NCBI RefSeq assembly: GCF_003628535.1
Contig: NZ_RBCI01000011.1
Span: 1-64,000, forward strand
Source of the DNA: Flavisolibacter nicotianae
GTDB taxonomy: Bacteria; Bacteroidota; Bacteroidia; Chitinophagales; Chitinophagaceae
DNA: 64,000 bases
Direction of reading: 5' to 3'
In this document: piece after piece, positions 11,414 to 44,964 of the stretch
How positions within the stretch are numbered: the stretch's first letter is position 1
Layout of the letters: each line of letters begins with the position of its first letter
Position numbers and translations under genes: made by a program
The notes under the pieces: generated by a model
The model's input: only the letters and a program-made list of their open reading frames with translations
What the model was told of the DNA's origin: nothing
Database searches by the model: none

Positions 11414-11498
11414 AAGACCAACTAACTCTGGAAAGAGCGATGAAACGTTCCATTCTGTAAATTTACCCTCACGCATAACCTCCAAAACAACTGAACTT

Positions 11499-14400: not shown

Positions 14401-14972
14401 ATCCTACACTTACCATCACTGACATGTACAACGTGCTGGAAAAACTCCGAAACGGTGAAACATTGAATGCTAAAGAGCAAAAAATTAACGAACAGGGTCT
14501 CGTCAGCATTCTCCTGCAAATGCATAATGAACTTGATGTGGCAACGGCCGCTGCTTATAGTTGGCCAGCAAATCTTTCAGAAGAAGAAATCCTCGAAAAA
14601 CTGATGGCGCTTAACGGGGAAAGGGCTGCGGAAGAAGCCCGTGGCTTGGTGCGCTGGATTCGCCCTGAACACCAGAACCCTGGCGGCGTACAGCAATCAG
14701 GCATCAACGTTGAAGCAATTGACACCAAAGCTGCAAAAGCAAGCGAGGAAGCAGCCGAATGGCCGAAAACATTGGCCGAGCAGGCACAAGTTGTTCAGCG
14801 TCTTCTACAACAATATCAGCAGCCTGTTTCTGCTGGTGATTTAAACAAGCAATTCAAACAAGCAAAGAAACCTGCTCGGGAAGCCCGGCAACAGCAAATT
14901 GAAAGTATATTAGAGATGTTCAGCACTTTGGGTTCGCTGCGTAAAACAGAGAAGGGCTTATATGTAAAATAA
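11499..14972 (+). CDS. MmeI-like single-chain restriction-modification enzyme (type IIL/IIG)
   Basis: One polypeptide combines DNA cleavage, adenine methylation and target recognition. From a GTG start at 11499 (1157 residues) the order is as follows. An N-terminal nuclease has D78-x9-E88-A-K90 (PD-(D/E)XK type). A helical spacer follows. The methyltransferase has A-H-F-T-P-R, SAM motif I D-P-A-C-G-S-G-N-F at 423-431 and catalytic N-P-P-F at 588-591. Then come a target-recognition domain (about 640-900) and a helical C-terminal domain. The frame is open further upstream to 11211, but that part overlaps the preceding gene and does not look like protein. Bases about 13280-14300, covering the recognition domain, are clearly AT-richer than the flanks, suggesting domain exchange. 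Stand-alone defence enzyme; BREX or DISARM partners are absent. Confidence 0.85.
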   Translation: MSTIAAASSPIESFISRWKASGASERANFQPFLTELCELLGVEKPKPATDKVYEASYTFERPVIFDDGEGKTTTNFIDLYKQHCFVMEAKQGADKATVSEAEMLGAAKVKTKAGTATRETRLWEREMKKAKEQALRYARSLPTEEGWPPFLVVVDVGYCIDLYADFARQGKTYVPFPDPQRYRIFLSELHNDKVQERLRLLFTAPLELDQSKRAARVTRELAERLAKLAALFETAGHAPEKVAGFLMRCLFTMFAEDVGLLPEGSFTQLLKDYRNNLQYLPNALQALWTTMDKGGFDPALRMAIPQFNGFLFKNQEALPLTEAQLDLLIDAASATWADVEPAIFGTLLERALQPKERHKLGAHFTPRAYVERLVMPTVIEPLREEWEAARTASAILENSGDETGALKEIEKFHRRLCSVRILDPACGSGNFLYVTLEHLKRLEGEVAEYLKHFPRQLGLDMTGGYTVTPAQFLGLEVNPRAAAIADVVLWIGYLQWHFRTHGNAKRLEDPILRQYGNIKQQDAVLSYSSRKPRLDSNGNPITRWDGHTTKQHPVTGLEVPDETARTSLYDYVEPKPAEWPEADFVVGNPPFVGNKRMREALGDGYTEALRLAYKGSVPDSADFVMYWWYRAGQLLSLKKIERFGFITTNSITQSFNRRVLQDFLEDVNKIAIVYAIPDHPWVDSNDGADVRIAMTVVKHGFSNGRLDLVVGEKESGDFYIEVKFVTKTGVIHSDLKTGVDLSSAIPLKANQDVSARGIIPHGEGFIVSEEVKAKLLDAKNNKSIIKPYRNGRDINQSSRNVYVIDTYGFSDIGLRNEYPAIYQWLFERVKPERDENKDKVRRENWWLHARSNEKLRSAISGLTRYIVTVQTSKFRNFLFLNGEIMPDDKLIAIGSGDAYILGILASNIHSSWSAATGSRLGVGNDLVYDKTRCFETFPFPDATEFQKQQIRTIAERLDAHRKQRQALHPTLTITDMYNVLEKLRNGETLNAKEQKINEQGLVSILLQMHNELDVATAAAYSWPANLSEEEILEKLMALNGERAAEEARGLVRWIRPEHQNPGGVQQSGINVEAIDTKAAKASEEAAEWPKTLAEQAQVVQRLLQQYQQPVSAGDLNKQFKQAKKPAREARQQQIESILEMFSTLGSLRKTEKGLYVK

Positions 14973-20631: not shown

Positions 20632-22905
20632 TTAAAAAAATAAGGTGAAACTTGCCCTTGCAAAAAATGGCGTGCCCGCCGTGAAATGAATTTCTGAAAC
20701 AGGGGCAGGCTCGTTCTGCAACCTGCTTTCTGTGTCAAACTGTGTTTCTTTCCATTTGACGTTGAAAAGATTTTGAATAGCTATTCCAGCTTCCCAATTT
20801 CTTTTCGTATAGTTAATGGCCGCATCGGTAACAAAGTAACCTTTTGCGATGACTGAATTGTCTTCGTTGGCTGGCCTGTCTGCCATATACCGGTAACGCA
20901 AGCTACCGTTCCAGCCCAATTCTTTTCTGTACGTTAAGCCGCCAACACTTGTAAAGCGAGGAGCCAATGGCAGGTAACTATTTGCTTTGTCAACTTCTAA
21001 TGCTCTCGGGTTAGCAAGGCTTATGTCAGCATCTGCATAAAGATTGTTTAGCACCTCATATCTCGCTGAAAAATCAAAGCCATATCTTCTTGTTTTTCCA
21101 CCTGGTTCCACCACCCCTTCATCACCGACATAAATAAATTCCTGGTCAAGCCACAAGTACCAGAGTGCCGATTGCAATACTAAATTCCTGCCTACTTTGA
21201 AGATGCCGCCCAAATCAGTTCCATAAGCGGGTGGCAGCACTTTCTTTCCGTCTTGCCGTACAGCTACTCTTGTGTCGTTGCTGTGAAAGCCCCTGCCATT
21301 GTACAAGTATAATTGCACTTTATCATTCAGCTTGTAGTTTACGTTTAGCTTTGGGCTTACGATTGCAGAATTGGTTGATAAGACTTGTGCCGTTAATTTA
21401 TCATTGTATTGATTGGTAAAATAATCAGCTCGTAATCCGCCGGTAACATCCAACTTTTTAGACAAGGAAAATCGTTGTGACCAATACGCACCTGCATTCA
21501 ATTCGTGAATGTCGCCCCGCATAATTTCAGCCGTGTTGACAACCCTGTCTTTTGTCCTTGTGAGTTCTATGTTATTGATGTCACCATAGCGTAATTGAAC
21601 ACCGGCATTGGTTTCTGTTTTGATATTGCCGAAGAAATACTCCTTGCGATATGAGCCATTATACCCGTAAATGTTTCGATCCTCTTTCTGCCTTATCTGG
21701 TCACCGTTGACCGGGTCTTCCTTGTAGAATGTAAAGTTGGAATAGAGTTCAAATTTGTACCGGGTGTAATAGACTTGATTGCGGATTGCACCACCGTTGT
21801 GCAGGTTTGTCAGGAGCTCCACATTTGCATTGTACCGGGATGTTTTTCCGCCTTCGGTGCTGTCGATGGCACCATAAAAATCAATCATACCGCTTTCAAC
21901 AGCCCTATCCGGTATTTGTCCTGATGCATTCCATTTGCTGGTAAAACCCGTTATACTTGCACTGATCGTGCTGGTGGGGCTGACGCTGCCATGATATTTT
22001 AGTATTCCATTAAAGCGACTAAAGTTCTGTGGATGGTCGAAATAGCCATCAGAGTAGGAGGCTTCACCGGCAAAGTACAAACTTTGGTTTCGTCTGTCAC
22101 CTGTTGATTTTAGCAGGTTGATGCCTGTGATGCCTCTGAATGTGTTGAACTGACCCCCTTCCAGTTTTACGAAATTGTTCTCCAGGTAATCTTTTGTTTT
22201 GAACTCCACAAAACCTGCTGTTGTAAAATTGCCTTTGTCGGCAAAGTAGGGTCCTTTATTGAAATTTACTTTGTCTATCAGTTCAGGAATAACAAAATGC
22301 AAGTCGGCATATCCCTGGCCGTGTGCATGGCTTACCATGTTTACTGGTATGCCATCCACTGAAATGTTGATGTCCGTGCCGTGGTCCAGGTCAAAGCCCC
22401 GTAAAAAGATTTGCTCCGCTTTGCCGCCACCGGCATGTTGACCGATGAACAGGCCTGGAACCATCCGCAATACTTCCTGTGAATTGTTGATGGGCCGTAA
22501 ATGAATGTCAAGGTCGCTGATGGTTTTAAAAATACCGCCATTGGCAGTTGCTTTGACCTGTACTTCCTGAAGGCTTGAAACTTTCGAATTGAGATAGATA
22601 ATAGCCGTATTATTGGTGCCCGTAAGTGTGTCTACAGCCACTCTTTTGACTTCAAACCCGATGCGGCTAATCAACAATTGTAAAGAGGATACTGGCAGAT
22701 TTCTGAAACTCACAAAGCCGTTTTCGTCTGCGGATGCATTGAAGCTGGCATCTTCATTTTGAACAAAGGCATCCTGGACAGGCACTTTGGTGTCGGCATT
22801 GACAATGTAAATGCCTTTAAGCTGTGACTGGCAAAAAACCCGGCCCGAAAGGCCAAGAAAAAGTAAAAAGAAGACTGCTCTCAGAAGTGATGCACAATGT
22901 CCCAT
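20632..22905 (-). CDS. TonB-dependent receptor with carboxypeptidase-regulatory-like N-terminal domain
   Basis: 757 residues: signal peptide (1-25), carboxypeptidase-D regulatory-like Ig domain (about 27-110), plug (about 115-240) and barrel ending T-L-F-F. The plug carries S-H-A-H-G-Q-G-Y near residue 190, a His-rich loop in a segment that often lines the ligand site; a metal or metallophore substrate is possible but not proven. It lies directly downstream of the metal-locus genes on the same strand, but has its own upstream region with a 12-bp inverted repeat and its own terminator. It is therefore probably a separate transcription unit. Confidence 0.88.
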   Translation of the reverse strand: MGHCASLLRAVFFLLFLGLSGRVFCQSQLKGIYIVNADTKVPVQDAFVQNEDASFNASADENGFVSFRNLPVSSLQLLISRIGFEVKRVAVDTLTGTNNTAIIYLNSKVSSLQEVQVKATANGGIFKTISDLDIHLRPINNSQEVLRMVPGLFIGQHAGGGKAEQIFLRGFDLDHGTDINISVDGIPVNMVSHAHGQGYADLHFVIPELIDKVNFNKGPYFADKGNFTTAGFVEFKTKDYLENNFVKLEGGQFNTFRGITGINLLKSTGDRRNQSLYFAGEASYSDGYFDHPQNFSRFNGILKYHGSVSPTSTISASITGFTSKWNASGQIPDRAVESGMIDFYGAIDSTEGGKTSRYNANVELLTNLHNGGAIRNQVYYTRYKFELYSNFTFYKEDPVNGDQIRQKEDRNIYGYNGSYRKEYFFGNIKTETNAGVQLRYGDINNIELTRTKDRVVNTAEIMRGDIHELNAGAYWSQRFSLSKKLDVTGGLRADYFTNQYNDKLTAQVLSTNSAIVSPKLNVNYKLNDKVQLYLYNGRGFHSNDTRVAVRQDGKKVLPPAYGTDLGGIFKVGRNLVLQSALWYLWLDQEFIYVGDEGVVEPGGKTRRYGFDFSARYEVLNNLYADADISLANPRALEVDKANSYLPLAPRFTSVGGLTYRKELGWNGSLRYRYMADRPANEDNSVIAKGYFVTDAAINYTKRNWEAGIAIQNLFNVKWKETQFDTESRLQNEPAPVSEIHFTAGTPFFARASFTLFF

Positions 22906-23066: not shown

Positions 23067-24284
23067 TCAGGGTAACAGCGCCCGTTTTACCAGCACATAA
23101 TCCTTGCTATTGTTGTTTGCTGTATAAGCAATTAGAGCCTTTTTGGCGTCAACAGGATAAACGACTGGAAATGACGCATCGCCATCGTGGGTGATATATT
23201 CTTTCACGGTTCGCTTACCCGATAGATCCCGCTGCTCCAATCCAATCCGGCTACTGACATTACTGCCATTCACAAAATTTTCATTCCAAACAATCAAGAT
23301 GTTGTCGTTTGGAAGCGTGGTGATCTGGCAGTGCTTGGATGCTTTACCACTTACACTGTCACGTGCTGTAAACGACTTGCCATTATCTAAAGAATGGTTG
23401 TAATAAATGCCTGAACCCTTGCCACCAGTGAACCAGGTAAACTGCAGGCCATTTTTGTTTTCTGTCATGGCAGGGCCGGTATGGGGGCAGCCGCTGATCA
23501 CCCAATCATCCTGACTTATTCGCTGGGGTTGGGAGAAGGTGCTCCCACCATCTGTTGAAACGATGTGCACCATGTCCCGGATGCTGTGATCCAAAATTGC
23601 TCTGTACAGCACATGAATGTTTTTTGCTTTGTCAATAAACAAATCGGTACGGCAACACTGGCAGCAAGGACCACTAATCAGCTTTTCATTCTGAAAGCCA
23701 TTCCTGCCGCTGGTGACAGCATAATACAACCCTGAACCTTCTTTTTTCCATGTCTTGCGATTGTCCAACCAGGTGATACCTGCTTCACCGTTTGGCAGCA
23801 GGGCCATGTCAAAATACCGCTGGTCGAAGCTGGTGGTATCGGTAGTCAGGCTTCTTGGTTTAGTCCACGTTTTTCCATTATCAAAGGACTGGCTGTAAAA
23901 CACCAGGCCGGAGTATTTGTTTCTTGGGTCAGGGTTTGCCGCACCCCAGGCGGCGACGATTTCACCCGAAGGCTTGAAAAGGATTTTCGGCATGTTTTCA
24001 CCATGCGGATGCACATTGGTGCTGCCGGGTATTGCAATGGGTTTATCAAAGGTCGCGCCTTCGTCAGTTGAAACAGCATAACAAACAATGGAACTGTCTG
24101 CACCTGATTGTTTAATCCAGCTTAGCACCACGTTGTTCTTGTTGTCTTTTGTCAGGTAGGGACAGGAGCCGGGGCTATTGTCTACCTGGATAGCATCGGT
24201 AGTCGAGACGAGTGGCTTTGGCTCTTGATTTTTACAAGCTATCAAACAAATAGAGAGAATTGCTATCGAAAGAAATCGTTTCAT
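23067..24284 (-). CDS. Sialidase-fold (BNR/Asp-box) lipoprotein with Cys/His-rich loops
   Basis: 405-residue lipoprotein: lipobox ending at Cys17, then a six-bladed propeller marked by four Asp boxes (72-79, 133-140, 243-250, 298-305). Sialidase catalytic residues are not evident. The protein instead has possible soft-metal ligands: H-P-H at 92-94, C-C-Q-C-C at 207-211, C-P-H at 266-268 and H-C at 318-319. These fall in loops between blades, where propellers bind ligands. Its ATG overlaps the TGA of the upstream receptor (4 nt), so the two are translationally coupled. I infer a surface or periplasmic metal-binding partner of that receptor rather than a glycosidase. Confidence 0.7.
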   Translation of the reverse strand: MKRFLSIAILSICLIACKNQEPKPLVSTTDAIQVDNSPGSCPYLTKDNKNNVVLSWIKQSGADSSIVCYAVSTDEGATFDKPIAIPGSTNVHPHGENMPKILFKPSGEIVAAWGAANPDPRNKYSGLVFYSQSFDNGKTWTKPRSLTTDTTSFDQRYFDMALLPNGEAGITWLDNRKTWKKEGSGLYYAVTSGRNGFQNEKLISGPCCQCCRTDLFIDKAKNIHVLYRAILDHSIRDMVHIVSTDGGSTFSQPQRISQDDWVISGCPHTGPAMTENKNGLQFTWFTGGKGSGIYYNHSLDNGKSFTARDSVSGKASKHCQITTLPNDNILIVWNENFVNGSNVSSRIGLEQRDLSGKRTVKEYITHDGDASFPVVYPVDAKKALIAYTANNNSKDYVLVKRALLP

Positions 24285-26620
24285 TGGTTCTTTTTAAAAA
24301 GGTTTGCAAAATCATAGGATACTCCCACATTGAAATTCCTGGGTTCGGCCAGTTGATAGCTCCAGCCGAAAGAGCTTTTCGTCGTGATGTAGGAGTAATA
24401 GTTGTTGGTGGCGTTGAGCACATTCACCCACACATCAAAGCCTTTGAACTGATAACCGGCTCTTAGATTAAAGGCATTGTATCCATCGTATGTAGCCGTG
24501 TTCTGCGGGTCCACAAAGTAGCTGCCAACATGCTGTAGCTCTGCCCCTATGCGAAAGCCTTTTACAAAAGAGGGCTTGTACCAAACCTCCGCGTTGTAAA
24601 TCCAGTGTGGCGCATTGGCCATCTCGTTTCCGTTGTAGGAAACGCCTTTCTCTACATAATCCACAAACTCGTGCTTGCTGTAGGCACCGCTAAGGCGGAA
24701 AGAGACATCTTTTATCGGTGTAGCATTCAAGCCAGCCTCAATGCCCCTGTGCAAGGTGCGTCCGGCGTTTTGATTGGCAAAAGAGCCATCATCGAGTTTC
24801 ACGGAAATAATTTCATTGGTTCCCTCCAGGCGGTAAGCACTGACATCAATAGAGAGTTTGTTTTTCACCAGTTCTACCCAGCCACCTACTTCGTAATTGT
24901 AAAAGATAGACGGATTTAAGTTCGGCACTTTAACACCCGTGTAAAGCTCTGTGACCTGTGGTGGCACAAAGCCCTCGGAATAGTTGGCATAGATGCCGGT
25001 CCGTGCAGAGAAGTTGTACGTAAAGCCCACTTTGGGACTGACCCGGTGAAAGTTGCTGACGGTGTCGGGTGAGCCACTAAAGGCCGAGGGGGTCAGGTGG
25101 TTATCGAACCCGTAATGGAAATAGTCATAACGCAATGATGCCACCACACGCAGCTTTTCAATCGGATTAAACTCAACGTTCAGGAACGCTGCATAGTTGT
25201 TCAGTTTTGTGGCATAATCGGTCAGTGTGCTGTCGGTATTCTGATAGCTGACATACTTTTTACTAATCGTATCTTTTTTAATGCGGATGTAATTCGCATT
25301 ATACGTGGAGGGGCTTATGTCAACGTTCAACCCTCCGATGACAACGGCTTTTTTCCAATTTAGGTTTTGCCTGTGTTGCGCTATCAGGGAATAAGAATGG
25401 AAGCGGTTTTCGTTGATCTCGCCATGTGCCAGATCTTTTTTGCCCACATTCACACCGTTTACTTTGCGGTAATCATCTTTTACCCGGTAAGCAGGGTTTT
25501 GCCCGATGGTATTGTCACGGTACAAAGCGGCTACTGTTGTCTTGCTGTTATCATTCCATACATGCGTTAGCGTGGAATGATAACGGAGTGCATCCACTTT
25601 CCGGTAGGTAAAGGTTTGCGGATTGGAGAAGGCTTTGCTCGCAAACATGGTGCTGTCAATACCCCCGGCCATGTCGCTGTAATAGTTTAGGTACGTGAGG
25701 CTGTTTGATAAAGTGGTCTTATCTGAAAAATGATAGTCTGCTCTTGCGGTGAAGGTGCCCTTGTGAAAATCGCTGTACTCCAAATAGCCGTTACGCTTGT
25801 CGGCATAATAGCCGCTTAGCACAAAGCCCCATTTACCTGTCGAAACGCTACTCATGAGGTCGGCCCGTTTGTAACCCACGTTATTGCCCTGTGCCGATAG
25901 TTTCAGCACCGGAACGGCAGTTGGTGCAGCGGTGATAAAGTTCACCACACCGCCAATGGCTTCGCTGCCGTAAAGCGAGGAAGAAGGGCCTTTGATGACC
26001 TCAATGCTTTTGGTAGCCGCCAGGTTCATTTCCAGTAAAGCGTTGTGGTTGTAAAGTCCCGATGTGCGAATAGGAATGCCATCTTCCAGATACAGGAAGA
26101 GGCTACGGGTGGTCATGGGCTGGCGGATGCTCATCTCGTGTTGCTCGTTGCCGAGGTTTACCATATTCACACCGCTCACTTTGTTCAGCACCTGGTCGGC
26201 CATTGTGGGCTTGGCATCCTGAATGGTCTTGCTTGTGATGGTGGTGATGGCAATGGGTGCTTCGGAACGTTTGGCGCCTTCGCCCCGGTTGGCAGTGAGT
26301 ACCACTTCCTGAAGCTGGGAAGCAGCAGGATTTAAGGAAACAATGTAGGCTTTGTTGGATACGGCAAATTGTTGGGGCGTGTACCCGATGTAGCTAACCG
26401 CAAGTGTCCGGCAATCGGTGCATCGCATTTCAAACTCCCCTGAGGCATTGGTGGTACAGCCGCAATGACAGTTTTCGTCTGTACAGTGAATGGTGGCGCC
26501 GGCTACCGGTTCTTTGGTGGTGGCATCAATGATTTTTCCTTTCACATTGGTTTGTGCATAGGTGGCCCTGGCAGCAAGGAATAAGACTGCCAACAGCACG
26601 GCTTTATAGAAACGTGACAT
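24281..26620 (-). CDS. TonB-dependent receptor with Cys-rich N-terminal domain, putative copper-type metal receptor
   Basis: 779 residues from ATG 26620, which gives a standard signal peptide (M-S-R-F-Y-K-A-V-L-L); the frame extends 8 codons further. The carboxypeptidase-regulatory-like domain (about 25-100) carries an unusual cysteine cluster C-T-D-E-N-C-H-C-G-C, followed by C-T-D-C about 12 residues later. Plug and barrel follow (V-I-K-G-P-S-S-S-L-Y-G-S-E-A-I-G-G-V), ending in a long C-terminal strand region. Such Cys insertions are not general features of the family, so they suggest thiol-metal binding before the plug. It is flanked by a Cys-containing small protein upstream and the coupled propeller lipoprotein downstream, likely one operon. 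Confidence 0.85.
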   Translation of the reverse strand: MSRFYKAVLLAVLFLAARATYAQTNVKGKIIDATTKEPVAGATIHCTDENCHCGCTTNASGEFEMRCTDCRTLAVSYIGYTPQQFAVSNKAYIVSLNPAASQLQEVVLTANRGEGAKRSEAPIAITTITSKTIQDAKPTMADQVLNKVSGVNMVNLGNEQHEMSIRQPMTTRSLFLYLEDGIPIRTSGLYNHNALLEMNLAATKSIEVIKGPSSSLYGSEAIGGVVNFITAAPTAVPVLKLSAQGNNVGYKRADLMSSVSTGKWGFVLSGYYADKRNGYLEYSDFHKGTFTARADYHFSDKTTLSNSLTYLNYYSDMAGGIDSTMFASKAFSNPQTFTYRKVDALRYHSTLTHVWNDNSKTTVAALYRDNTIGQNPAYRVKDDYRKVNGVNVGKKDLAHGEINENRFHSYSLIAQHRQNLNWKKAVVIGGLNVDISPSTYNANYIRIKKDTISKKYVSYQNTDSTLTDYATKLNNYAAFLNVEFNPIEKLRVVASLRYDYFHYGFDNHLTPSAFSGSPDTVSNFHRVSPKVGFTYNFSARTGIYANYSEGFVPPQVTELYTGVKVPNLNPSIFYNYEVGGWVELVKNKLSIDVSAYRLEGTNEIISVKLDDGSFANQNAGRTLHRGIEAGLNATPIKDVSFRLSGAYSKHEFVDYVEKGVSYNGNEMANAPHWIYNAEVWYKPSFVKGFRIGAELQHVGSYFVDPQNTATYDGYNAFNLRAGYQFKGFDVWVNVLNATNNYYSYITTKSSFGWSYQLAEPRNFNVGVSYDFANLFKKNQ

Positions 26621-26722
26621 GTGGTTGAAGTTGTGTGTAAACAATGGTGTGCAAACAGCATCCGTAGTTTCTCTTTTAAAAAAACAAAGAAGGATGAAGA
26701 GGCTGTTTTTCTAAAGGTTTGC

Positions 26723-27097
26723 TCACACCAGGGCCGGTGGATGGAAAATGTCGGCGTAGATGCCTTTGGGGAAAGAAGTGTCGGCGTAAAGAGAATAGGA
26801 AACGGGAAGGTTCAGTTGATGAAAGGCCAAGGTGGCAAAGGAGGATTTTGCGTAAACCACCTCGTTCCTGTTCCCGCCTTTCCGTTCAGGGTTTTGCTCC
26901 TCTTTCTTTTCCTGCTCTTTGAGCTTTTTCATCATCTGGCACTTGCCGTTGCAGTGCAGCATGGGCCGGGCCTTATTCTCACAATTTTTGGCAAAGGAAG
27001 CCGTGTTTGCATAGTAATCCAGCACAATAACAGCCTGGCTGAAGCTATAGGCTGCAAAGGCAAGAATAAGCAATATGGCTGCAATTTGCCGGTACAT
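26723..27097 (-). CDS. Small exported protein with HCxxxC motif
   Basis: 124 residues starting at ATG 27097: one N-terminal hydrophobic segment (about 3-22, signal peptide or anchor), then C39, H48-C49 and C53 in the order C-x8-H-C-N-G-K-C-Q-M-M. A charged Lys/Glu stretch and a C-terminal tail follow. The Cys/His/Met cluster resembles metal-binding sites. I do not know a characterised homologue, although similar small proteins are familiar beside metal-related TonB receptors in Bacteroidota. It is first in the presumed operon with the Cys-rich receptor and the propeller lipoprotein. Confidence 0.7.
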   Translation of the reverse strand: MYRQIAAILLILAFAAYSFSQAVIVLDYYANTASFAKNCENKARPMLHCNGKCQMMKKLKEQEKKEEQNPERKGGNRNEVVYAKSSFATLAFHQLNLPVSYSLYADTSFPKGIYADIFHPPALV

Positions 27098-27106
27098 AAA
27101 GCGACA

Positions 27107-27135
27107 CAAAGGTATTTTAAGATTGAGTGCCGCAA
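27107..27135 (-). promoter_or_regulatory. Bacteroidota-type promoter for the metal operon
   Basis: On the minus strand TTG (27135-27133) is followed after 18 nt by TACCTTTG (27114-27107), fitting the Bacteroidota TTTG / TAnnTTTG consensus. The ATG at 27097 lies only about 10 nt beyond the -7 box, so the mRNA would be nearly leaderless. Confidence 0.45.
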
Positions 27136-27142
27136 CTGACTG

Positions 27143-27164
27143 AAATCAGCCGGGTTGCTGATTT
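27143..27164. promoter_or_regulatory. Dyad operator candidate between divergent metal genes
   Basis: Perfect 8-bp inverted repeat aaatcagc/gctgattt separated by 6 bp, in the 142-bp divergent region between the small Cys protein (minus) and the HMA protein (plus). Position and symmetry fit a dimeric repressor or activator site controlling both directions. Confidence 0.5.
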
Positions 27165-27239
27165 ATGCAAAATAACCATGCCCACCGAACGTTCTAATGG
27201 GTGAGTATGTCCCGGAATTTCCTTTGTAACTTTAAATGA

Positions 27240-27755
27240 ATGAAAACTGCTTTTTTTCTGTTACTGACCTTTGTTTCGCTGCGGGGCCTCGGTCAGCTCA
27301 AAGCTGTCGAGGTGCAGGTCGGTGGATTATCCTGTGCCCTTTGTTCGAAAACCGTTCAAAAAAGCCTGGAGAAAATTTCCTTTATTGGGGCGGTAAAACC
27401 GGACTTAAACAGCCAAGAATTTCGTCTGGTCTTTCGGGAAAACAGCTTTGTGGATTTGGAACAAATCAAAAAACAGGTTGAGGATGCCGGCTTTTCGGTG
27501 GCCCGTTTGCAGGTAGTGGCTGATTTTGGGGATGTTCCTGTAGAAAGCAACAGTCCCGTAAAAATTGGCTCCCTTCAGTTTCAGTTAATGGACGCAGGAG
27601 CGAACGTTTTAAAAGGCGAACACACCCTGACACTGACGGAAAAGGATTTTCTCTCGGCAAAAGCCTTTAAAAAATACTGTGGTAACTCTTTGCAAAAATG
27701 CAGTGCCAAAACCCTTTCCCCGGATGGCAGTCGAATTTACAAGGTGGTAATATGA
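27240..27755 (+). CDS. Exported heavy-metal-associated (HMA) domain protein
   Basis: 171 residues with a signal peptide (about 1-19) followed by an HMA/ferredoxin-like fold. The metal-binding loop is G-G-L-S-C32-A-L-C35-S-K, then a helix and the strand pattern with F-S-V near residue 83. HMA domains bind Cu(I) and related soft metals through C-x-x-C. Here the domain is exported, so it would act in the periplasm rather than as a cytoplasmic chaperone. A second, less recognisable C-terminal segment (about 100-171) adds C146 and C153. It is divergent from the receptor operon and 43 nt upstream of an outer-membrane protein gene. Confidence 0.8.
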   Translation: MKTAFFLLLTFVSLRGLGQLKAVEVQVGGLSCALCSKTVQKSLEKISFIGAVKPDLNSQEFRLVFRENSFVDLEQIKKQVEDAGFSVARLQVVADFGDVPVESNSPVKIGSLQFQLMDAGANVLKGEHTLTLTEKDFLSAKAFKKYCGNSLQKCSAKTLSPDGSRIYKVVI

Positions 27756-27798
27756 TGGCTGTCTCTTTCCTTTACTGTCAGGCAGTCTTTGGTTGATT

Positions 27799-28620
27799 AT
27801 GTACAAGTATTTTCTCTTGCTTTTCGTTGGCATCGTCCAGAAAACAGCGGCACAAGAACTATTTGTGTTTACAGATCCGGCTTCGGGACTGGCGGCCCGT
27901 TCGTTAAACCTAAAACTTTCTGACCATTATATGCCGTATGACAGGGTGTACAGCCGGCCGGCTCATCGCCTGATGCTGGATGCGGAGGTAGGCATTTCCA
28001 GAAAACTGACAGCAATGGCAGGGGTCAGCGTTTCCAACATGCACACTTATCAGGTAAAGCAGGAAGCCTTGTTTGTGGAAGCAAAATACCGTTGTCTTTC
28101 TCTTGATGAAGTGCACCGGCATTTTCGCATGGCGGCTTTCGTCCAGGCTTCACATACCAAGGCACCTTTTCACTACGATGAAACGAATTTGACGGGTGAC
28201 AAAAGTGGCGTAAGGCTTGGAATGATTGCAACGAAACTTTGGAACCGGTTTGCACTTTCCGGCACCCTCAGCCACACACAAGTGCTGGATAGTTCACGCT
28301 TCAACGAAACGGTTTATATACCCAGGCGTATTTACCAGACGCTAAACTATTCGCTGTCCGGTGGCTACCTGGTGCTTCCCCGTCGCTATACCAGCTACCG
28401 GCAAGTGAATGTCAACCTTTATGGTGAACTGTTGGCGCAACAGGCCTTGGACCACAAAAGCTACTATGTTGATGCTGCCCCGGCGCTGCAATTCATTTTC
28501 TTCAGCAACACAAAACTAAACGTGGGTTACCGCTTCAAACTGGCAGGGAATGCGCAGCGGATGTCGAACGTAAGCTGGCTGTTTAGCATTGAAAGAAGTT
28601 TTTTGAACGTTTGGAAGTAG
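27799..28620 (+). CDS. Outer-membrane beta-barrel-like protein, metal locus
   Basis: 273 residues from ATG 27799 (an in-frame TTG lies two codons upstream). A signal peptide ends near A-A-Q-E. The rest alternates hydrophobic and polar residues as in transmembrane strands (for example Y-R-F-K-L-A-G-N-A near the end), with short turns. I cannot assign a named family. It is 43 nt downstream of the exported HMA protein on the same strand, so it is probably co-transcribed and may work in the same metal process. Confidence 0.6.
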   Translation: MYKYFLLLFVGIVQKTAAQELFVFTDPASGLAARSLNLKLSDHYMPYDRVYSRPAHRLMLDAEVGISRKLTAMAGVSVSNMHTYQVKQEALFVEAKYRCLSLDEVHRHFRMAAFVQASHTKAPFHYDETNLTGDKSGVRLGMIATKLWNRFALSGTLSHTQVLDSSRFNETVYIPRRIYQTLNYSLSGGYLVLPRRYTSYRQVNVNLYGELLAQQALDHKSYYVDAAPALQFIFFSNTKLNVGYRFKLAGNAQRMSNVSWLFSIERSFLNVWK

Positions 28621-28633
28621 CAGCAACGGTTGC

Positions 28634-29035
28634 TTAGTTGGTTGACACATCCACTTGAGCTGTTGCCAGGTTTTGCGATGGGTCAAAGGCAATAATCTTA
28701 ATGATATAAGAAAGGCCTGTTTGTGCAGTAAAGGCGTCCTGCACGGTTCCCGTTTTAGCATCGGGATAGGAATGAATGTCACGAAGCAAAGCGCCAGTTT
28801 CTTTGTTCAGTACATGGATGTGGAGTTCTGATACTTTGTTGTTATCAGTGGCGGATGCGGTTACCTGGATAGTTTGACCAGAAGAAAAGATTTGGTTGTT
28901 GGTAGGTGATGTGATAGTTATAGCCGGTGCGGTGGTGTCTTTTGTATTTTCTGTACCGATTGTACTGCCGTTTTTTGAACAGGCAAAAAAGAGGCAGGTG
29001 AATAAAAGCAATATGGTTGTACGGAAAAAAGTCAA
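28634..29035 (-). CDS. Lipoprotein with Ig-like (DUF4625-type) domain
   Basis: 133-residue lipoprotein: lipobox F-A-C with Cys19, a short linker, and one Ig-like domain (about 35-133). The domain resembles DUF4625 and related Bacteroidota folds (A-P-A-I-T-I-T-S-P and I-Q-V-T-A-S-A-T-D-N-N-K-V-S-E-L-H-I-H-V). It has no cysteines after the lipobox; the H-I-H near residue 73 may bind metal. It ends tail-to-tail with the outer-membrane protein, 13 nt apart. Lipoproteins with this fold often lie beside metal-related TonB receptors, so I place it in the metal locus with moderate confidence. Confidence 0.7.
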   Translation of the reverse strand: MTFFRTTILLLFTCLFFACSKNGSTIGTENTKDTTAPAITITSPTNNQIFSSGQTIQVTASATDNNKVSELHIHVLNKETGALLRDIHSYPDAKTGTVQDAFTAQTGLSYIIKIIAFDPSQNLATAQVDVSTN

Positions 29036-33420: not shown

Positions 33421-35892
33421 GTGATGGAAAGGTTGTTATATGAGATGCTTCCTATCATGGAGGTCGAGCATAATGCTATCCTGTCAAAGCATGGGGACAT
33501 TACAATTGGCTTCAAAGTAAGCCTACCGGAACTGTTTACTTTGTCCGATAGAGATTTCGAAGGGCTCCACCAGGCTTGGGTAAAGGCTATCAAGGTTCTT
33601 CCTAAGCATAGCATTTTTCACAAACAAGATTGGTTTATACAATCGAAGTACCGGCCTGACTTCTCCAAAGATGACAAAAGCTTCCTTTCTCTTAGTAGCG
33701 AACGTTTTTTCAACGAACGGCCATTCCTGGAACATACGTGTTACCTGTTTCTCACAAAGAAGGCATCGGGTAGAAAATCGGTGAATTCGCTTTTGTCAAA
33801 TCTTCTTCGCAGAAGCATTGTGCCGGAGCAAGCGATTAAGCAGCATTTTCTTCAGGATTTTCAGGACGCCTGTGGCCAATTCAAGCAGATTGTGGAGGAT
33901 AGCGGGTTTGTAAAGTTGCAACGCCTAACGAACAAAGAGCTTTTTAGTTTGGAGAACAAGGCCGGTGCGGTTGAGCGGTACTGCTTTTTGCTCCCCGATG
34001 AAAAGGAAGTTGCCATCAAAGACATTGTGCTAAAGGACGAGGTAAAAATAGGTGACCAACACGTACAGTACTATACGCTTTCGGATGCACAGGAGTTGCC
34101 GGCATTCTGTGGCTCTCGCATCAATTATGACCGTTATTCAACAGACCGGACGAAATTCTCCATTGGTTTTACGTCGCCGCTTGGACAGTTGCTGCCCTGT
34201 AACCACATTTTTCACCAATACATTTTTGTGGAGGATGCTGCAAAAACGATAAACAAGTTCGAAAGCAAACGGCTTCGGCTCCAGTCGCTGGCGGCTTATT
34301 CAAGGGAGAACGCCATTGTGAAGGATGCAATCAACGAATTTTTGAATGAAGCTTTATCCGGGCAGCGTTTACCAGTGAAGGCACACTTTAATGTAACGGT
34401 TTGGACAGATAAAAAAGAGGAGTTGAAGGACCTCAAGAACCTGGTGTCAAGTGCCATGGCCCAGATGGATGCAGTTCCGAAGCAGGAAGTGGATGGAGCT
34501 GCGCAAATCCACTGGGCTGGCATACCAGGGAATGAAGCGGAATTTCCGATGAACGACACCTTTGACACCTTTGTGGAGCAGGCTTGTTGCTTTCTGAACA
34601 TGGAAACGGCTTACCAGTCTTCACTTTCACTCATTGGACTTCGCTTGGGAGACAGGCTGACCGGCAAACCCGTTCATGTTGATATATCGGATGAACCGAT
34701 GCAAAAAGGCATTTGCACAAACCGGAACAAATTCATTTTAGGTCCCAGCGGCAGCGGTAAATCCTTCTTCACCAATCACATGGTCCGTTCTTATTACGAG
34801 CAAGGAACGCATATCGTTCTGGTGGATGTAGGCCATTCCTATAAAGGGCTGTGTGATTTGGTGGAAGGATACTATTTCACTTACGATGAAAAGAATCCCA
34901 TCAGGTTCAATCCCTTTTATATCGAAGAAGGTGATTTGCTGGACACAGAGAAAAAGGAAAGCATCAAAACGCTGTTACTGGCTCTTTGGAAAAAAGACAA
35001 CGAAAACTACAACCGGAGCGAGTACGTAGCACTTTCCAACGCTTTGCAGCTCTATTACAAGCATCTTGACAATAACGAGGGAGTTTTTCCCTGTTTCAAT
35101 ACTTTTTACGATTTCCTGCAAACCCAGTTCGTAGAAATCTTGAAAGAGGACAAGGTAAAGGAAAAGGATTTTGACATTTCGAACTTCCTCTACGTGTTGC
35201 GGCCTTACTACAAAGGTGGTGAGTTCGATTACCTGCTGAATGCCTCGGCAAATCTTGACCTGTTAAGGCAGCCATTTATTGTCTTCGAGCTGGACAACAT
35301 CAAGGACCATCCCATACTTTTTCCGGTGGTGACCATTATAATCATGGAAGTGTTTATTTCTAAAATGCGGAACCTGAAAGGTGTTCGGAAAATGATATTG
35401 ATTGAAGAAGCATGGAAGGCTATTGCGAGGGAAGGAATGGCGGAGTACATCAAATACCTGTTCAAAACGGTTCGAAAGTTCTTTGGTGAAGCCATCGTGG
35501 TGACACAGGAAGTAGAAGATATTATTTCATCACCGGTGGTGAAGCAAGCTATTATCAACAACGCCGATTGCAAAATCCTGTTGGACCAGTCGAAGTACCA
35601 GAACAAATTTGACCAAATTCAGGAATTACTGGGTTTGACAGATAAAGAAAAGGCATTGGTGCTCTCCGTCAATAAGGCAAACGACGTAACAAAACGGTAC
35701 AAAGAAGTCTTTATTTCTCTTGGTGGAGTTCTTTCAAAAGTTTATCGTACGGAAGTGTCTTTGGAAGAATATTTGACGTACACTACCGAGGAAAAAGAGA
35801 AAATTAAAGTGGCTGCTTACGCTAAAAAATGGGGAAGTATGCGAAAGGGAATTGCAGTTCTTGCAGAGGAAATGAAAAACTCCAAATTCTAA
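33421..35892 (+). CDS. traG: Conjugative transfer ATPase TraG (VirB4 family)
   Basis: 823-residue VirB4-type ATPase that powers assembly and operation of the conjugation channel at the inner membrane. The N-terminal half (about 1-400) is the membrane-associated VirB4 domain. Walker A G-P-S-G-S-G-K-S-F is at 441-449 and Walker B M-I-L-I-E-E-A-W near 657-664. Later motifs include V-T-Q-E-V-E-D-I and L-L-D-Q-S-K-Y. The length is normal and the frame intact. Despite the shared letter, this is not the coupling protein, which is mobC at 2984-4951. Confidence 0.93.
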   Translation: MMERLLYEMLPIMEVEHNAILSKHGDITIGFKVSLPELFTLSDRDFEGLHQAWVKAIKVLPKHSIFHKQDWFIQSKYRPDFSKDDKSFLSLSSERFFNERPFLEHTCYLFLTKKASGRKSVNSLLSNLLRRSIVPEQAIKQHFLQDFQDACGQFKQIVEDSGFVKLQRLTNKELFSLENKAGAVERYCFLLPDEKEVAIKDIVLKDEVKIGDQHVQYYTLSDAQELPAFCGSRINYDRYSTDRTKFSIGFTSPLGQLLPCNHIFHQYIFVEDAAKTINKFESKRLRLQSLAAYSRENAIVKDAINEFLNEALSGQRLPVKAHFNVTVWTDKKEELKDLKNLVSSAMAQMDAVPKQEVDGAAQIHWAGIPGNEAEFPMNDTFDTFVEQACCFLNMETAYQSSLSLIGLRLGDRLTGKPVHVDISDEPMQKGICTNRNKFILGPSGSGKSFFTNHMVRSYYEQGTHIVLVDVGHSYKGLCDLVEGYYFTYDEKNPIRFNPFYIEEGDLLDTEKKESIKTLLLALWKKDNENYNRSEYVALSNALQLYYKHLDNNEGVFPCFNTFYDFLQTQFVEILKEDKVKEKDFDISNFLYVLRPYYKGGEFDYLLNASANLDLLRQPFIVFELDNIKDHPILFPVVTIIIMEVFISKMRNLKGVRKMILIEEAWKAIAREGMAEYIKYLFKTVRKFFGEAIVVTQEVEDIISSPVVKQAIINNADCKILLDQSKYQNKFDQIQELLGLTDKEKALVLSVNKANDVTKRYKEVFISLGGVLSKVYRTEVSLEEYLTYTTEEKEKIKVAAYAKKWGSMRKGIAVLAEEMKNSKF

Positions 35893-35916
35893 TTCAATCA
35901 TATAAAATTCTGGTTT

Positions 35917-36309
35917 ATGAAACTTGGTTTTTTGTCTTTGCTCGTCATCCCGGTTGTTCTCTCTTGTGGAAATACAAGCAGCCAACTGCCTGGAAGAACC
36001 GTTGAAGGAAACTATGTGGCGCAATCGAAGAGTGAGTTTAGCGTTGCCGATGATACGCTTTCCATCAACGCCATTGCAGGCCAGCAATCAATGTACTCTA
36101 TTAAAAGGAGCGTTAGTTACCAAAGAGTAACAGAGAAAGGAACCAGGCCGAAGGAGTCAAAGCAGGAGTTTGCCACTGCGATTTGGGAGCCCCAGAGCAG
36201 CCAGCTGAAAGAGCAAAAACATGGGAGAGTGTATTCCCTATCGGCCGACGGCAGTCAACTGATGATTGGAACAATGATTTATACAAAAATCCTTCCTGGT
36301 AAGGGATAA
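35917..36309 (+). CDS. Small lipoprotein in the tra operon
   Basis: 130-residue lipoprotein with lipobox V-L-S-C at residue 17, followed by a polar beta-rich domain containing G-N-Y-V-A-Q-S-K-S-E-F-S-V-A-D-D-T-L. It belongs to no family I can name. The position between traG and traI is constant in several related tra operons as I recall them, which suggests an envelope role such as lipoprotein partner of the channel (VirB7-like). That assignment is inference from place and lipobox only. Confidence 0.6.
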   Translation: MKLGFLSLLVIPVVLSCGNTSSQLPGRTVEGNYVAQSKSEFSVADDTLSINAIAGQQSMYSIKRSVSYQRVTEKGTRPKESKQEFATAIWEPQSSQLKEQKHGRVYSLSADGSQLMIGTMIYTKILPGKG

Positions 36310-36316
36310 GAAATTT

Positions 36317-36991
36317 ATGAAAAAGGTGAGATTGATACTGTGCGTTGTGATTATTGCAATTTCATGTCCGCAGAGCCGGTTGCTAGCTCAAGACCCGATA
36401 ACTGTCATTATTCAGCAAGGGATTAAAAAGGTGATTATTGCCGTTGACTTAAAAATTCAGCGACTGCAAAACCGGGTAATCTGGTTGCAAAATGCACAGA
36501 AAGCGGTGGAGAATACCATGTCGAAACTTCGCCTGGACGAAATTTCAGATTGGGTGGAAAAGCAGCGTAATCTGTACCGGGACTACTTCGAGGAGCTTTG
36601 GAAGGTGAAGGATCTCGTGAGCTATTATCATAAGGTGAGAGACGTCACAAGCCGGCAAATCCTGTTGGTAAAGGAATATAAACGTGCCTGGAATGGTATA
36701 CAGCAGGACAAGCATTTTACGCCTGAAGAGGTAACATACATGGGAAAAGTCTATTCGGGCATTATGGCAGAGAGCTTGAAGAACTTAGAACAGGTGATTT
36801 TGGTTATTCAATCATTCTCACTTCAGGTGACAGATGCAAAACGCATGGAGTTAATTAATGCGGCTTCAGATGCCATGCAACAGAATTACACTGACTTGAA
36901 AGCTTTCAATTTTCAAAATGTTCTACTTTCCCTCCAGAGAGCGAAAGACGCAGAGGAAATAGCAGCAGTCAGAAGGCTATACGGAATGTAA
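36317..36991 (+). CDS. traI: Conjugal transfer protein TraI (DUF4141-like)
   Basis: 224-residue secreted helical protein: signal peptide (about 1-25) then long amphipathic helices. Typical segments are L-L-V-K-E-Y-K-R-A-W near 117-126 and the F-T-P-E-E-V-T-Y-M-G-K-V turn. TraI of Bacteroides conjugative transposons is a periplasmic component of unknown structure, often compared with VirB5 minor pilins. It is the first of three tandem proteins of this type; this copy has the clearest resemblance. Confidence 0.75.
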   Translation: MKKVRLILCVVIIAISCPQSRLLAQDPITVIIQQGIKKVIIAVDLKIQRLQNRVIWLQNAQKAVENTMSKLRLDEISDWVEKQRNLYRDYFEELWKVKDLVSYYHKVRDVTSRQILLVKEYKRAWNGIQQDKHFTPEEVTYMGKVYSGIMAESLKNLEQVILVIQSFSLQVTDAKRMELINAASDAMQQNYTDLKAFNFQNVLLSLQRAKDAEEIAAVRRLYGM

Positions 36992-37018
36992 TTGTTTACT
37001 TACAAAACGTGAAAGACA

Positions 37019-37651
37019 ATGAAAAAGGTCATGGCTGCCATGGCAGTGCTTTGTATTGCCCTAGGCGCAAGCGCTCAAACTTGGGACGAGTGGTTTCGCC
37101 AGAAGAAAACGCAAATCAAGTATTTGGTGGAACAGTTATCTGCTTTGCGAATCTATGGTAGCGCTGTAAAGAAGGGCTATGACTTGGCAAATAGTGGTTT
37201 GCAGACTATCGGCCACCTAAAAGAGAGTGATTTGGCCCTCCATCAGGAACATTTTACCTCTTTGCTCCAGGTAAAGGAAGGTGTAAAGGACAGCAAAGTA
37301 TTGCAACGTATGAATTCGTTACAAACTGCAATCCAACGTATAAATACTGAATGTAGAAAGCGGTTATTAAATGACGGTGAGTTTACAACTGACGAGAAAG
37401 GATATTTCGCCAAGGTTTTGAATAATGTGATGAAAGAGAGTACGGCTATAGGACAGGAGGCGGTATTGCTCACGTCTGACGGTAACTATCAAATGGCGGA
37501 TGACGAAAGGCTGAAGCGGCTCCAGGCTTTGCTGATAAGCACCGAGGATCTGTATGTTTTCCTAAGACAATTTAGAAACAACTTGGCAACAATGGCGCTG
37601 AACAGGATGAGGGAGCAAATCGATGCACAAAGACTAAGGTCGCTTTATTGA
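37019..37651 (+). CDS. TraI-like protein, second tandem copy
   Basis: 210 residues with signal peptide (about 1-20, G-A-S-A-Q) and a helical body. It resembles the neighbouring TraI proteins in length, signal, helix pattern and a C-terminal M-A-D-D-E-R-L-K-R-L-Q segment that matches M-S-D-D-E-R-L in the third copy. Direct sequence similarity to the first copy is low, so these are old duplicates or functionally distinct. Probably periplasmic. Confidence 0.65.
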   Translation: MKKVMAAMAVLCIALGASAQTWDEWFRQKKTQIKYLVEQLSALRIYGSAVKKGYDLANSGLQTIGHLKESDLALHQEHFTSLLQVKEGVKDSKVLQRMNSLQTAIQRINTECRKRLLNDGEFTTDEKGYFAKVLNNVMKESTAIGQEAVLLTSDGNYQMADDERLKRLQALLISTEDLYVFLRQFRNNLATMALNRMREQIDAQRLRSLY

Positions 37652-37669
37652 GCAATTCAAATGTGATGT

Positions 37670-38305
37670 ATGAAAAAGTGTGTTGTTGGTTTATTTATGA
37701 TGTTCACGATGTTTCTTTCAAGGGAAGCACACAGCCAGGCCCAAGAAGTGCAACAGCTGCTTTTAAACGTTGAGAAGCTGGCGCAGCTTAAGAATATTTT
37801 AGAAGACCTGAAAAAAGGTTATGAAATCGTTTCTCAAGGATACTCGACCATCAAGAACCTGTCACAAGGAAACTTCAACATCCATGAAGCCTTTCTTGAC
37901 GGTTTATTAGAGGTAAGTTCCGCGGTACGAAACTACAGGCGCATCACGGATATCGTTAGCGCACAAATAAGCCTGGTGAAAGAGTACAAAGCAGCTTATC
38001 GTCGTTTCGCCAGCAGTGGTTTTTTCTCTGTCGAAGAGCTGACGTATATGAAAACTGTCTTTGAAAATCTTTTCAACCAAAGCGTCAAAAATATAGAAGC
38101 GCTGATTATGGTAATTACAGACGGAAAGCTCCGTATGTCTGATGATGAGCGGTTGACATCAATCGACGCCATCTGGAAAGAAGCTTCCGACCAGTTAACC
38201 TTTCTTCGGCATTTCAATCAAGATACAAAATTGCTGGCCCTCCAGCGGGCAAAGGCATCAGCAGATGCACAATTGCAAAAGAAACTTTTCTCCATCAACA
38301 AGTAA
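37670..38305 (+). CDS. TraI-like protein, third tandem copy
   Basis: 211 residues; signal peptide (about 1-24) then helices with I-S-L-V-K-E-Y-K-A-A-Y and F-S-V-E-E-L-T-Y-M-K-T-V, which align with L-V-K-E-Y-K-R-A-W and F-T-P-E-E-V-T-Y-M-G-K-V in the first copy. This is therefore a genuine paralogue. It lies 18 nt after the second copy and 9 nt before traJ. Three copies could form a hetero-oligomer or tip complex. Confidence 0.7.
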   Translation: MKKCVVGLFMMFTMFLSREAHSQAQEVQQLLLNVEKLAQLKNILEDLKKGYEIVSQGYSTIKNLSQGNFNIHEAFLDGLLEVSSAVRNYRRITDIVSAQISLVKEYKAAYRRFASSGFFSVEELTYMKTVFENLFNQSVKNIEALIMVITDGKLRMSDDERLTSIDAIWKEASDQLTFLRHFNQDTKLLALQRAKASADAQLQKKLFSINK

Positions 38306-38314
38306 GTAGACAAT

Positions 38315-39499: not shown

Positions 39500-40116
39500 T
39501 GTTTCAGAAAGCAAAGAATATAGATACCGCCTTTCGACAGGTTCGGCTCTTTTCTGTCACCATTATTGTTTGTGTGGTTGGACTGGCCGGTTTTGTAACG
39601 TACAAAAGCTACCACTTGGCAGATAACATTCAATCGCACATATATGTGCTGGCGAACGGAAAGGCCATTGAAGCTTTTGCAAGTGACCGTAAGGAAAACA
39701 TTCCAGTTGAAGCAAGAGACCATGTGCGTACGTTTCACCAGTGGTTCTTTACACTGGCTCCGGACGAAAAAGCCATTCAAACGAATATCACGAGAGCATT
39801 GTATTTGGCCGATGGCTCTGCCAAGAGCATCTATGAGAGCCTGAAGGAAAACAACTACTACACCGGCATCATTACGGGTAATGTTAGCCAGGAAGTGACG
39901 GTGGATAGTGTTTCTCTCAACCTTGACGTAGCGCCTTATTCTTTCCGGTGCTGGGCAACGCAGCGGATTACCCGGCCAAGTGCAATCACCATGCGCTCCC
40001 TGGTAACAGAAGGGTTTCTGCGGTCGATTACGAGGTCTGACAACAATCCTCATGGCTTCCTGATTGAAAAATGGCGCATCCTCGACAATCATGACCTCAA
40101 AACAGAAAAACGATAG
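39499..40116 (+). CDS. traK: Conjugative transposon protein TraK (VirB8-like)
   Basis: 205 residues: short cytoplasmic N-terminus, one membrane helix (about 18-38, T-I-I-V-C-V-V-G-L-A-G-F-V-T-Y), then a periplasmic NTF2-like domain. It shows family segments R-T-F-H-Q-W-F-F-T-L-A-P-D-E-K-A-I and C-W-A-T-Q-R-I-T-R-P. TraK is a VirB8-type scaffold linking inner and outer parts of the channel. The start is overlapped by the traJ stop, and traM follows after 2 nt. Confidence 0.9.
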   Translation: MFQKAKNIDTAFRQVRLFSVTIIVCVVGLAGFVTYKSYHLADNIQSHIYVLANGKAIEAFASDRKENIPVEARDHVRTFHQWFFTLAPDEKAIQTNITRALYLADGSAKSIYESLKENNYYTGIITGNVSQEVTVDSVSLNLDVAPYSFRCWATQRITRPSAITMRSLVTEGFLRSITRSDNNPHGFLIEKWRILDNHDLKTEKR

Positions 40117-40118
40117 CC

Positions 40119-41843: not shown

Positions 41844-41871
41844 CAATCAATCAACAATTAAATCCAGTGTT

Positions 41872-42720: not shown

Positions 42721-42732
42721 AAACGTGAAGCG

Positions 42733-44949: not shown

Positions 44950-44964
44950 AGTATTTAAAATACC

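Follow-up and report, generated by a model that had tools for sequence, protein, structure and literature searches.

Does a small group of genes for exported and outer-membrane proteins in Flavisolibacter nicotianae bring copper into the cell, protect the cell from copper, or serve some other ligand? The genes lie at positions 23067 to 29035 of a 64,000-nucleotide (nt) stretch of contig NZ_RBCI01000011.1 (assembly GCF_003628535.1), and it is this whole stretch that we call the window. The original prediction, made from the sequence, was that six neighboring genes around a divergent promoter with a dyad form a unit for acquisition or detoxification of copper or a similar metal. The window does contain the dyad and each of the six genes. 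Three of the genes prove to be conserved together, and the best overall explanation, to which we give somewhat better than even probability, is a copper acquisition operon carried on a conjugative element. Copper and import across the outer membrane are retained from the original prediction, but the six-gene unit, and the casting of its small protein as a transport part, are not.

The three genes lie on the reverse strand. The operon's first gene (26723..27097) encodes a 124-residue protein, here called SMALL, with a hydrophobic N terminus (judged by eye), the sequence HCNGKC, which contains a CxGxC motif, and the C-terminal sequence FHPPALV. Its likely start is the ATG at 27097, replacing the listed TTG at 27109. 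After an intergenic distance of 102 nt comes a gene for a TonB-dependent transporter (TBDT; 24281..26620), a candidate copper importer with Pfam plug and barrel domains. The third gene (23067..24284) encodes a CxCC beta-propeller lipoprotein, a candidate copper-capturing lid. The lipoprotein matches BNR_2 and has a lipobox, recognized by eye; its start codon overlaps the TBDT stop by 4 nt.

Is this arrangement conserved? We scanned one genome per species and took the best 80 of 84 stretches that encode a relative, by title mostly from Chitinophaga and related genera; the window makes 81 loci. Some locus names denote duplicate DNA (L059=L031, L064=G294, L055=L030, L065=L033, L112=L035, L044=L145, L047=L144, L051=L028, and L076=L034). 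Conserved clustering had been set beforehand as a test of the original prediction, and it was found: SMALL, TBDT, and propeller recur, in that order, in most of the 81 loci. Specifically, a full-length TBDT ends no more than 400 nt from the propeller in 67 of them, and SMALL was found in 71; ten loci have at most 3.5 kb of upstream sequence. Triads also occur in two other Bacteroidota families (L190 and L200), with one gene intervening between SMALL and TBDT in L200. Within the window's family, 40 of 294 genomes encode the propeller (E up to 1e-40). The Chitinophaga loci share a common gene order with a lipoprotein-acyltransferase-like gene and other ordinary genes, as judged from a look at the sequences, and so they amount to roughly a single observation. 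We reject the six-gene unit: three genes are conserved together, two more, an HMA/OMP pair described below, are an add-on, and membership of the sixth, an Ig-like lipoprotein, is unsupported.

The company that the triad keeps points to copper. In Pollutibacter soli (L064), a single strand carries nosZ-x-nosD-nosF-nosY-SMALL-TBDT-propeller. NosZ (928 bits) and NosD (424 bits) both exceed their curated cut-offs; nosF (ABC ATPase) and nosY (permease) were assigned by size, order, and a look at the sequence, and x is a gene without an assignment. In F. ginsengisoli (L031/L059), one open reading frame (ORF) on the opposite strand separates the triad from nosD, an ATPase, a permease, and a cytochrome c/cbb3-like pair. 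The triad of L200, which belongs to another family, comes after NosD (426 bits) and ABC genes of a similar kind. nosZ is about 9 kb away in L109, L112, and L113, and within 12 kb of the propeller on the same contig in at least four genomes (G013, G024, G247, and G294). In Parafilimonas terrae (L030/L055), SCO1/SenC separates SMALL from TBDT, and a CopA-type copper ATPase is encoded upstream of the triad in Segetibacter L050.

These associations can be counted. The neighbor counts drew on the 80 named loci only, and the controls were 40 stretches of 20 kb, taken at round coordinates in eight genomes. Outside Chitinophaga, copper/metal queries match 11 of 36 triad loci versus three of 40 control stretches (p 0.02), two of the three control matches being AraC-type regulators; four of the 11 matching loci have HMA, OMP, or other metal proteins only. 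When the queries are restricted to CopA, SCO1, NosZ, and NosD, the counts are 7/36 versus 1/40 (p 0.02). The split between Chitinophaga and other loci was made after the loci had been seen; the 36 include L061 and L066, metagenome-assembled genomes (MAGs) titled Chitinophaga pinensis, and the remaining 44, counted as Chitinophaga, include [Flexibacter] L084. At the level of whole genomes, nosZ is present in 27 of the 32 with a strong propeller match (E < 1e-100) versus 137 of the other 262 (Fisher p 3e-4, with no correction for kinship), and in 30 of all 40 propeller genomes (p 0.006). A full nosZ also lies in the window's own genome, on a different contig. Within the families, the recurring neighbors are nosZ/nosD, SCO1, CopA, PepSY_TM, and MbnP/MbnH, and these, together with conserved His, Met, and Cys chemistry, uphold the copper-type metal of the original prediction. 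Judged from neighbors and residues, copper is probably the substrate; iron, zinc, or a metallophore is a possible alternative.

What in the transporter could handle such a metal? Seven residues (M153, H161, M163, H192, H624, H650, and M667) are kept in all 67 triad receptors, and an eighth, H416, is kept in 66. M153, H161, M163, and H192 lie in the plug; H416, H624, H650, and M667 lie in the barrel. In 14 outgroup receptors taken from the fetched loci, nearly all eight sites carry other residues; seven of the 14 have His at 161. Two of the eight residues occur in the receptor at HMA/OMP locus L134. All eight are kept in the receptors that follow SMALL in L190, L200, L203, L193, L195, and L204, and seven in L196; the low-scoring L186 and L199 keep none. 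The gene next after the receptor encodes PepSY_TM in L193 and L204 (by Pfam) and in L195 (by similarity). The AF2 model of the TBDT has a pLDDT of 84.1. The pairing of TBDT with propeller, as in BtuBG and XusAB, agrees with the predicted outer-membrane import route. The receptor had also been described as Cys-rich; receptor and Cys-rich N terminus are real, with all six Cys of the window receptor in an N-terminal carboxypeptidase-like domain, but the Cys are mostly not conserved, the invariant residues being His and Met. A patch of five or more Cys occurs in only 10 of the 67 triad receptors, and we rejected it as a metal site. Separately, the window's genome encodes a second SMALL-TBDT pair without a propeller (L203; G000:C2, 6462-9303), whose receptor shares all eight His/Met residues and is again rich in Cys at its N terminus.

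The propeller has invariant candidate ligands for a soft metal of its own. C208, C210, C211, C266, H268, and H318 are invariant in 73 propeller sequences, and C41 and H94 nearly so. In the strand list of its AF2 model (pLDDT 93.5), the invariant Cys and His immediately precede or begin the innermost strand in one blade after another, so that, as far as strand order can tell, they should encircle the channel at one of its mouths. The best structural matches among those listed are propellers such as CylK and the PLL lectins (Z 30-32), which are seven-bladed. BtuG and XusB are not among the 50 structural matches listed, an absence that excludes nothing. Pfam gave BNR_2 and BNR only (E up to 0.5), with no DUF4374 match. 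A wider family of CxCC propellers is present in 52 of 198 Bacteroidota genomes (E up to 1e-25). CxCC is kept in all seven distant members inspected, and their alignment has C204, C206, C207, and a GCP sequence invariant. Twenty loci of this wider family and 20 SMALL loci were chosen by hand, mostly among the best-scoring places. The former have a TlpA-like partner in six cases, CopA in three, and nosDYZ in one, versus 2/40 controls for TlpA, the TlpA query having been taken from one of the 20 loci counted, and 0/40 for CopA and nosDYZ.

Why would a transport operon begin with SMALL? CxGxC is present in 96 of 96 SMALL sequences and [HR]PP in 93, with one to seven residues following PP in 91 of those 93. 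The spacing between the two motifs is 60-68 residues, near-constant over a variable middle. C39, C49, C53, and FxPP are invariant in 21 SMALL sequences, and among control ORFs of 100-150 residues [HR]PP is likewise placed in 1/334. The median gap is 99 nt from SMALL to TBDT (n=66) and 3 nt from TBDT to propeller (n=67). CxGxC, the extreme C-terminal [HR]PP, and a gap of about 100 nt recall CruR and CutF, which are upstream ORFs that respond to copper, and, because of this anatomy, SMALL is probably a regulator rather than a transport part and would work as they do. We consider regulation by SMALL as an upstream ORF fairly likely. The small HCxxxC protein of the original prediction is present, with the sequence HCNGKC, but it is more likely a copper-responsive upstream ORF than a part of the transport machinery. 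SMALL is probably exported. TAnnTTTG is the Bacteroidota -7 promoter consensus. In 47 of 70 loci such a box begins 12-26 nt ahead of the SMALL ATG; 20 of the 70 have none within 260 nt. The candidate element in the window, TACCTTTG (27107..27114, reverse strand), begins 17 nt before the SMALL ATG.

SMALL reaches well beyond the triad, occurring in 77 of 198 Bacteroidota genomes. The 20 fetched SMALL loci contain MbnP plus MbnH in seven cases, PepSY_TM in three, an SCO1-like gene in four, NosD in two, and a triad-type receptor in seven. A copper gene (MbnP/H, PepSY_TM, SCO1, nos, NirK, COX1, or CopA, with TlpA left out) is present in 14/20 versus 1/40 controls, a descriptive count in that several queries came from the loci counted. 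Two side observations concern this family. MbnP and MbnH genes neighbor SMALL in the Bacteroidota loci L188, L189, L191, L194, L197, L198, and L205, and five of these seven also contain an unnamed Cys-rich family (ACDICGC). DUF2946-like proteins, two of them over the cut-off, occur in 5/198 Bacteroidota genomes (L226-L230) at places other than SMALL, and in three of the five the protein has a C-terminal RGPP or RAPP.

The notion is that CxCC, CPH, and additional His line a mouth of the surface-exposed propeller lipoprotein, where copper or one of its chelates would bind. The lipoprotein would sit lid-like on the TBDT, a placement that we regard as moderately probable. The TBDT would then move copper past the plug and barrel His/Met site into the periplasm, where copper could supply copper enzymes such as the N2O reductase encoded in the window's genome. 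Meanwhile, the nascent SMALL chain would bind copper through CxGxC, and its C-terminal F[HR]PP arrest motif would control translation or transcription of the downstream genes. The divergent HMA/OMP pair would be an associated periplasmic/outer-membrane metal module.

Several findings weigh against this proposal. Four Niastella loci (L052, L053, L054, and L057) have a propeller without an adjacent TBDT. Copper/metal queries match 0/44 Chitinophaga loci, and taken over all loci the excess is not significant (11/80 versus 3/40 controls, p 0.38). nosZ is common in the family (164/294 genomes), and 137 genomes have nosZ without a strong propeller. The conserved Cys could form disulfides. DUF2946 (PF11162) is not listed for any of 21 SMALL members (E up to 1), and the SMALL motif differs from RAPP. 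Pairing between the stop and start regions of the intergenic RNA, as a switch there might use, is weak: -10.84 kcal/mol in cis versus -9.66 (standard deviation (sd) 0.45) with shuffled partners across 62 loci, where a control interval likewise gives -9.58 versus -9.06 (sd 0.27); intergenic folding z-scores in 12 chosen loci run from -3.2 to 1.1, with -1.1 for the window. Finally, OprC is absent among the 60 PDB matches listed for the TBDT (E up to 10), and the closest solved receptors by sequence and fold are YncD/PqqU (E 7e-42 and 1e-41), which are not copper importers. YncD aligns His and Met at H416 and M667. This resemblance, and a nitrate-assimilation-like cluster upstream in L045 (from a look at the sequence), would suit uptake of pyrroloquinoline quinone, a siderophore, or another metallophore, with the Cys and His playing structural roles. 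However, the TBDT scores far under the cut-off of the PqqU family model (99.9 versus 1200 bits), and six of the eight residues differ in YncD and nearly all in the 14 outgroup receptors, so we hold uptake of such a ligand to be very unlikely. Still more improbable is a glycan system in which the propeller, as a sialidase-, GH145-, or lectin-like sugar binder, feeds the receptor. BNR_2, Asp boxes, and folds near CylK, PLL lectins, and GH145-type enzymes invite that idea, but the best match to a solved sialidase has an E of 0.0068, the propeller invariants include four Cys and two His, and SusD or glycan-enzyme genes were not seen as recurrent neighbors when the triad loci were looked over. The matches being weak, we rejected the glycan/sialidase reading of the propeller.

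Closer to copper acquisition is metal detoxification, in which the locus senses excess copper or silver and exports or sequesters it at the outer membrane. Some islands that encode CopA ATPases or HMBD proteins do contain distant CxCC propellers (L206, L208, and L209), and some HMA/OMP loci include HMBD, HMA-MauE, and AraC-type genes. A TonB-dependent transporter, however, imports; no efflux pump was seen at the window locus; and, of the seven loci with a CopA, SCO1, NosZ, or NosD match, six have copper-enzyme or assembly genes and one has CopA. We judge detoxification quite unlikely. For the triad, we favor acquisition on two grounds: it includes a TBDT, and the linked genes found (nosZ, nosD, and SCO1) mostly serve copper-using enzymes. 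The remaining alternative alters one component and leaves the rest of the proposal unchanged: SMALL would be a translated periplasmic copper chaperone and not an arrest-type regulator. Its probable export and three invariant Cys are compatible with that role, which was first conjectured for CutF (PMC9426467). Arguing the other way are F[HR]PP near the C terminus, its near-constant spacing over a variable middle, the long gap downstream, and the in vitro demonstration that CruR arrests at RAPP (PMC12992588). The chaperone is the rival that we take most seriously, and we still think it unlikely.

How did the proposed copper acquisition operon come to lie where it does? The window TBDT is placed with G003 (support 0.995); the window SMALL falls with both G003 and L060 (0.79). 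The window propeller groups with a six-member, Segetibacter-type clade (0.934), to which it is 67-70% identical, versus 56% to G003. The discordance between TBDT and propeller ancestry would be explained by a propeller swapped in from another lineage, with the exchange at the boundary between the two genes. One flank of the locus encodes a relaxase (4963-6246) and a YWFCY-type coupling protein (2984-4951). The other has TraG/TraJ/TraM genes (33421-41843), and a serine recombinase (at 45730) within the flanking region 33421-47316. Type I restriction-modification genes (93-2614) and a MmeI-type restriction-methylase (11211-14972) are also present. Because the block sits between conjugation genes, the locus is probably cargo of an integrative conjugative element.

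Around the triad lie the remaining genes of the original prediction. Divergent from it, on the forward strand, is the gene for an exported HMA-domain protein (27240..27755; GLSCALC), an identification confirmed by a PF00403 match at 41.4 bits. Its partner is an outer-membrane-type protein (OMP; 27793..28620, with an ATG at 27799; forward strand), for which Pfam gives no match. OMP homologs occur in 138/294 family genomes, and an HMA homolog adjoins OMP in 18 of 20 fetched OMP loci, which often also have a second HMA protein or TlpA-like, Porin_10, or AraC-type genes, and in some cases HMBD. Both genes lie next to the triad in the window, L047, L050, and L062, and only OMP does in L044; two orientations occur among these loci. 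The window's genome also carries a further copy of the pair in its usual setting (L142). Thus, HMA/OMP recurs beside the triad in 4/80 other loci (one with OMP only), but it is a separate, widespread, general metal module, linked to the triad repeatedly though not obligatorily. As a side observation, nine HMA/OMP loci (L129, L131, L132, L135, L137, and L139-L142) encode another short Cys protein near the cluster head, with HYCM/HFCM, CGxCGM, GCC, and H[SAG]PP about 15-18 residues before the C terminus. Since arrest at HAPP and HGPP is known (PMC10987492 and PMC12992588), this protein may also be an upstream ORF.

The Ig-like lipoprotein (28634..29035, reverse strand) is over the Big_7 cut-off and below that of DUF4625 (24.4 versus 27 bits, Pfam). 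The ORFs of the 80 other triad loci include no homolog, and we regard it as a neighbor only. The dyad, AAATCAGC-N6-GCTGATTT (27143..27164), is a possible operator between the divergent genes, with perfect 8-nt inverted arms and a 6-nt spacer. It was seen in none of the 69 other loci with upstream DNA, one of which (L059) has a copy of an arm upstream of SMALL; a conserved operator is not supported. Several other inverted repeats upstream of SMALL resemble terminators of upstream genes. Downstream of the propeller lies a second TonB-dependent receptor (20632..22905, reverse strand). A 77.5% identical receptor occupies the same place in L046, and a 57.8% identical one stands beside the G003 triad in the other orientation; possibly, the second receptor is co-inherited with the propeller. 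L046 itself is a MAG record titled Williamsia sp. whose triad resembles those of Chitinophagaceae, and the label looks wrong.

Why should a copper importer matter here? The enzyme encoded by nosZ destroys the greenhouse gas N2O and needs copper, and 164/294 family genomes carry the gene. We found no published account of outer-membrane copper uptake in Bacteroidota, in a search whose coverage left out most subscription journals and preprints. We tentatively suggest, at a little short of even chances, that Bacteroidota possess a copper importer of their own: a His/Met TBDT with an arrest-type, copper-sensing F[HR]PP upstream ORF and either a CxCC lid or a PepSY_TM reductase, serving N2O reductase and respiratory oxidases and mobile on conjugative elements. 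The locus supplies named genes and residues, and in the CxCC propeller it offers a fold that may capture copper at the cell surface. As a copper-capturing surface lid, the propeller would be the first known to us.

Among known systems, cruR-crtA-crpH of Bordetella pertussis is similar in having a small Cys protein first, a long gap, and then a TBDT; PepSY_TM comes next in L193, L195, and L204, and MbnPH and SCO neighbors are shared. CruR senses copper through CXXC, with a proposed RAPP arrest three residues before its end, and CruR operons contain TBDT, PepSY_TM, Sco, PCuAC, YcnI, MbnPH, and AhpC/TSA genes (PMC9426467). PepSY_TM genes follow that of the CrtA copper importer in >75% of CrtA loci (PMC12914433). 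Like CruR, SMALL is the first gene of an operon (as strand and order suggest) with a TBDT and/or PepSY_TM. Unlike CruR, it has CxGxC in place of CXXC, F[HR]PP in place of RAPP, and a spacing of 60-68 rather than 45, and it lacks DUF2946. In the triad, moreover, the propeller stands in place of PepSY_TM, and the TBDT has conserved Met, which CrtA, by its published description (PMC12914433), does not. CutF of Rhodobacter capsulatus pairs CxxxC with a C-terminal proline motif, and CutF-like proteins are numerous in Bacteroidota (19% of 5,334), where TonB-like genes are the next commonest neighbors after OEP (PMC9973294). SMALL has several of the features by which that study filtered CutF-like proteins: CxxxC, fewer than 150 residues, PP within the 15 C-terminal residues, and a same-strand downstream gene within 1000 nt (102 nt in the window). 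The filter also asks for an N-terminal signal peptide, where SMALL has the hydrophobic N terminus seen by eye. CutF differs in boosting multicopper oxidase production upon copper addition. RAPP/RGPP-type upstream ORFs of copper genes are reported missing from some groups such as Bacteroidota (PMC12992588), and an F[HR]PP family could reconcile that absence with the CutF-like proteins there.

For the transporter and its lid, the parallels lie elsewhere. OprC/NosA is likewise a copper TBDT, with NosA tied to N2O reductase, and uses Met and His with an HxM motif (PMC8610252); OprC, however, is not among the matches listed for the family profile, and in the triad TBDT HxM lies in the plug and the conserved set lacks CxxxM. 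In Bacteroides, BtuB-BtuG (vitamin B12) and XusA-XusB (ferric siderophores) join a TBDT gene to a beta-propeller surface lipoprotein, and the BtuG and XusB propellers act as lids (PMC10404256 and PMC13142918). The triad propeller differs in its predicted invariant Cys/His mouth, its copper context, and its lack of the DUF4374 of XusB. If our interpretation is correct, it would be the soft-metal counterpart of BtuG and XusB, and the triad is a new combination of known parts.

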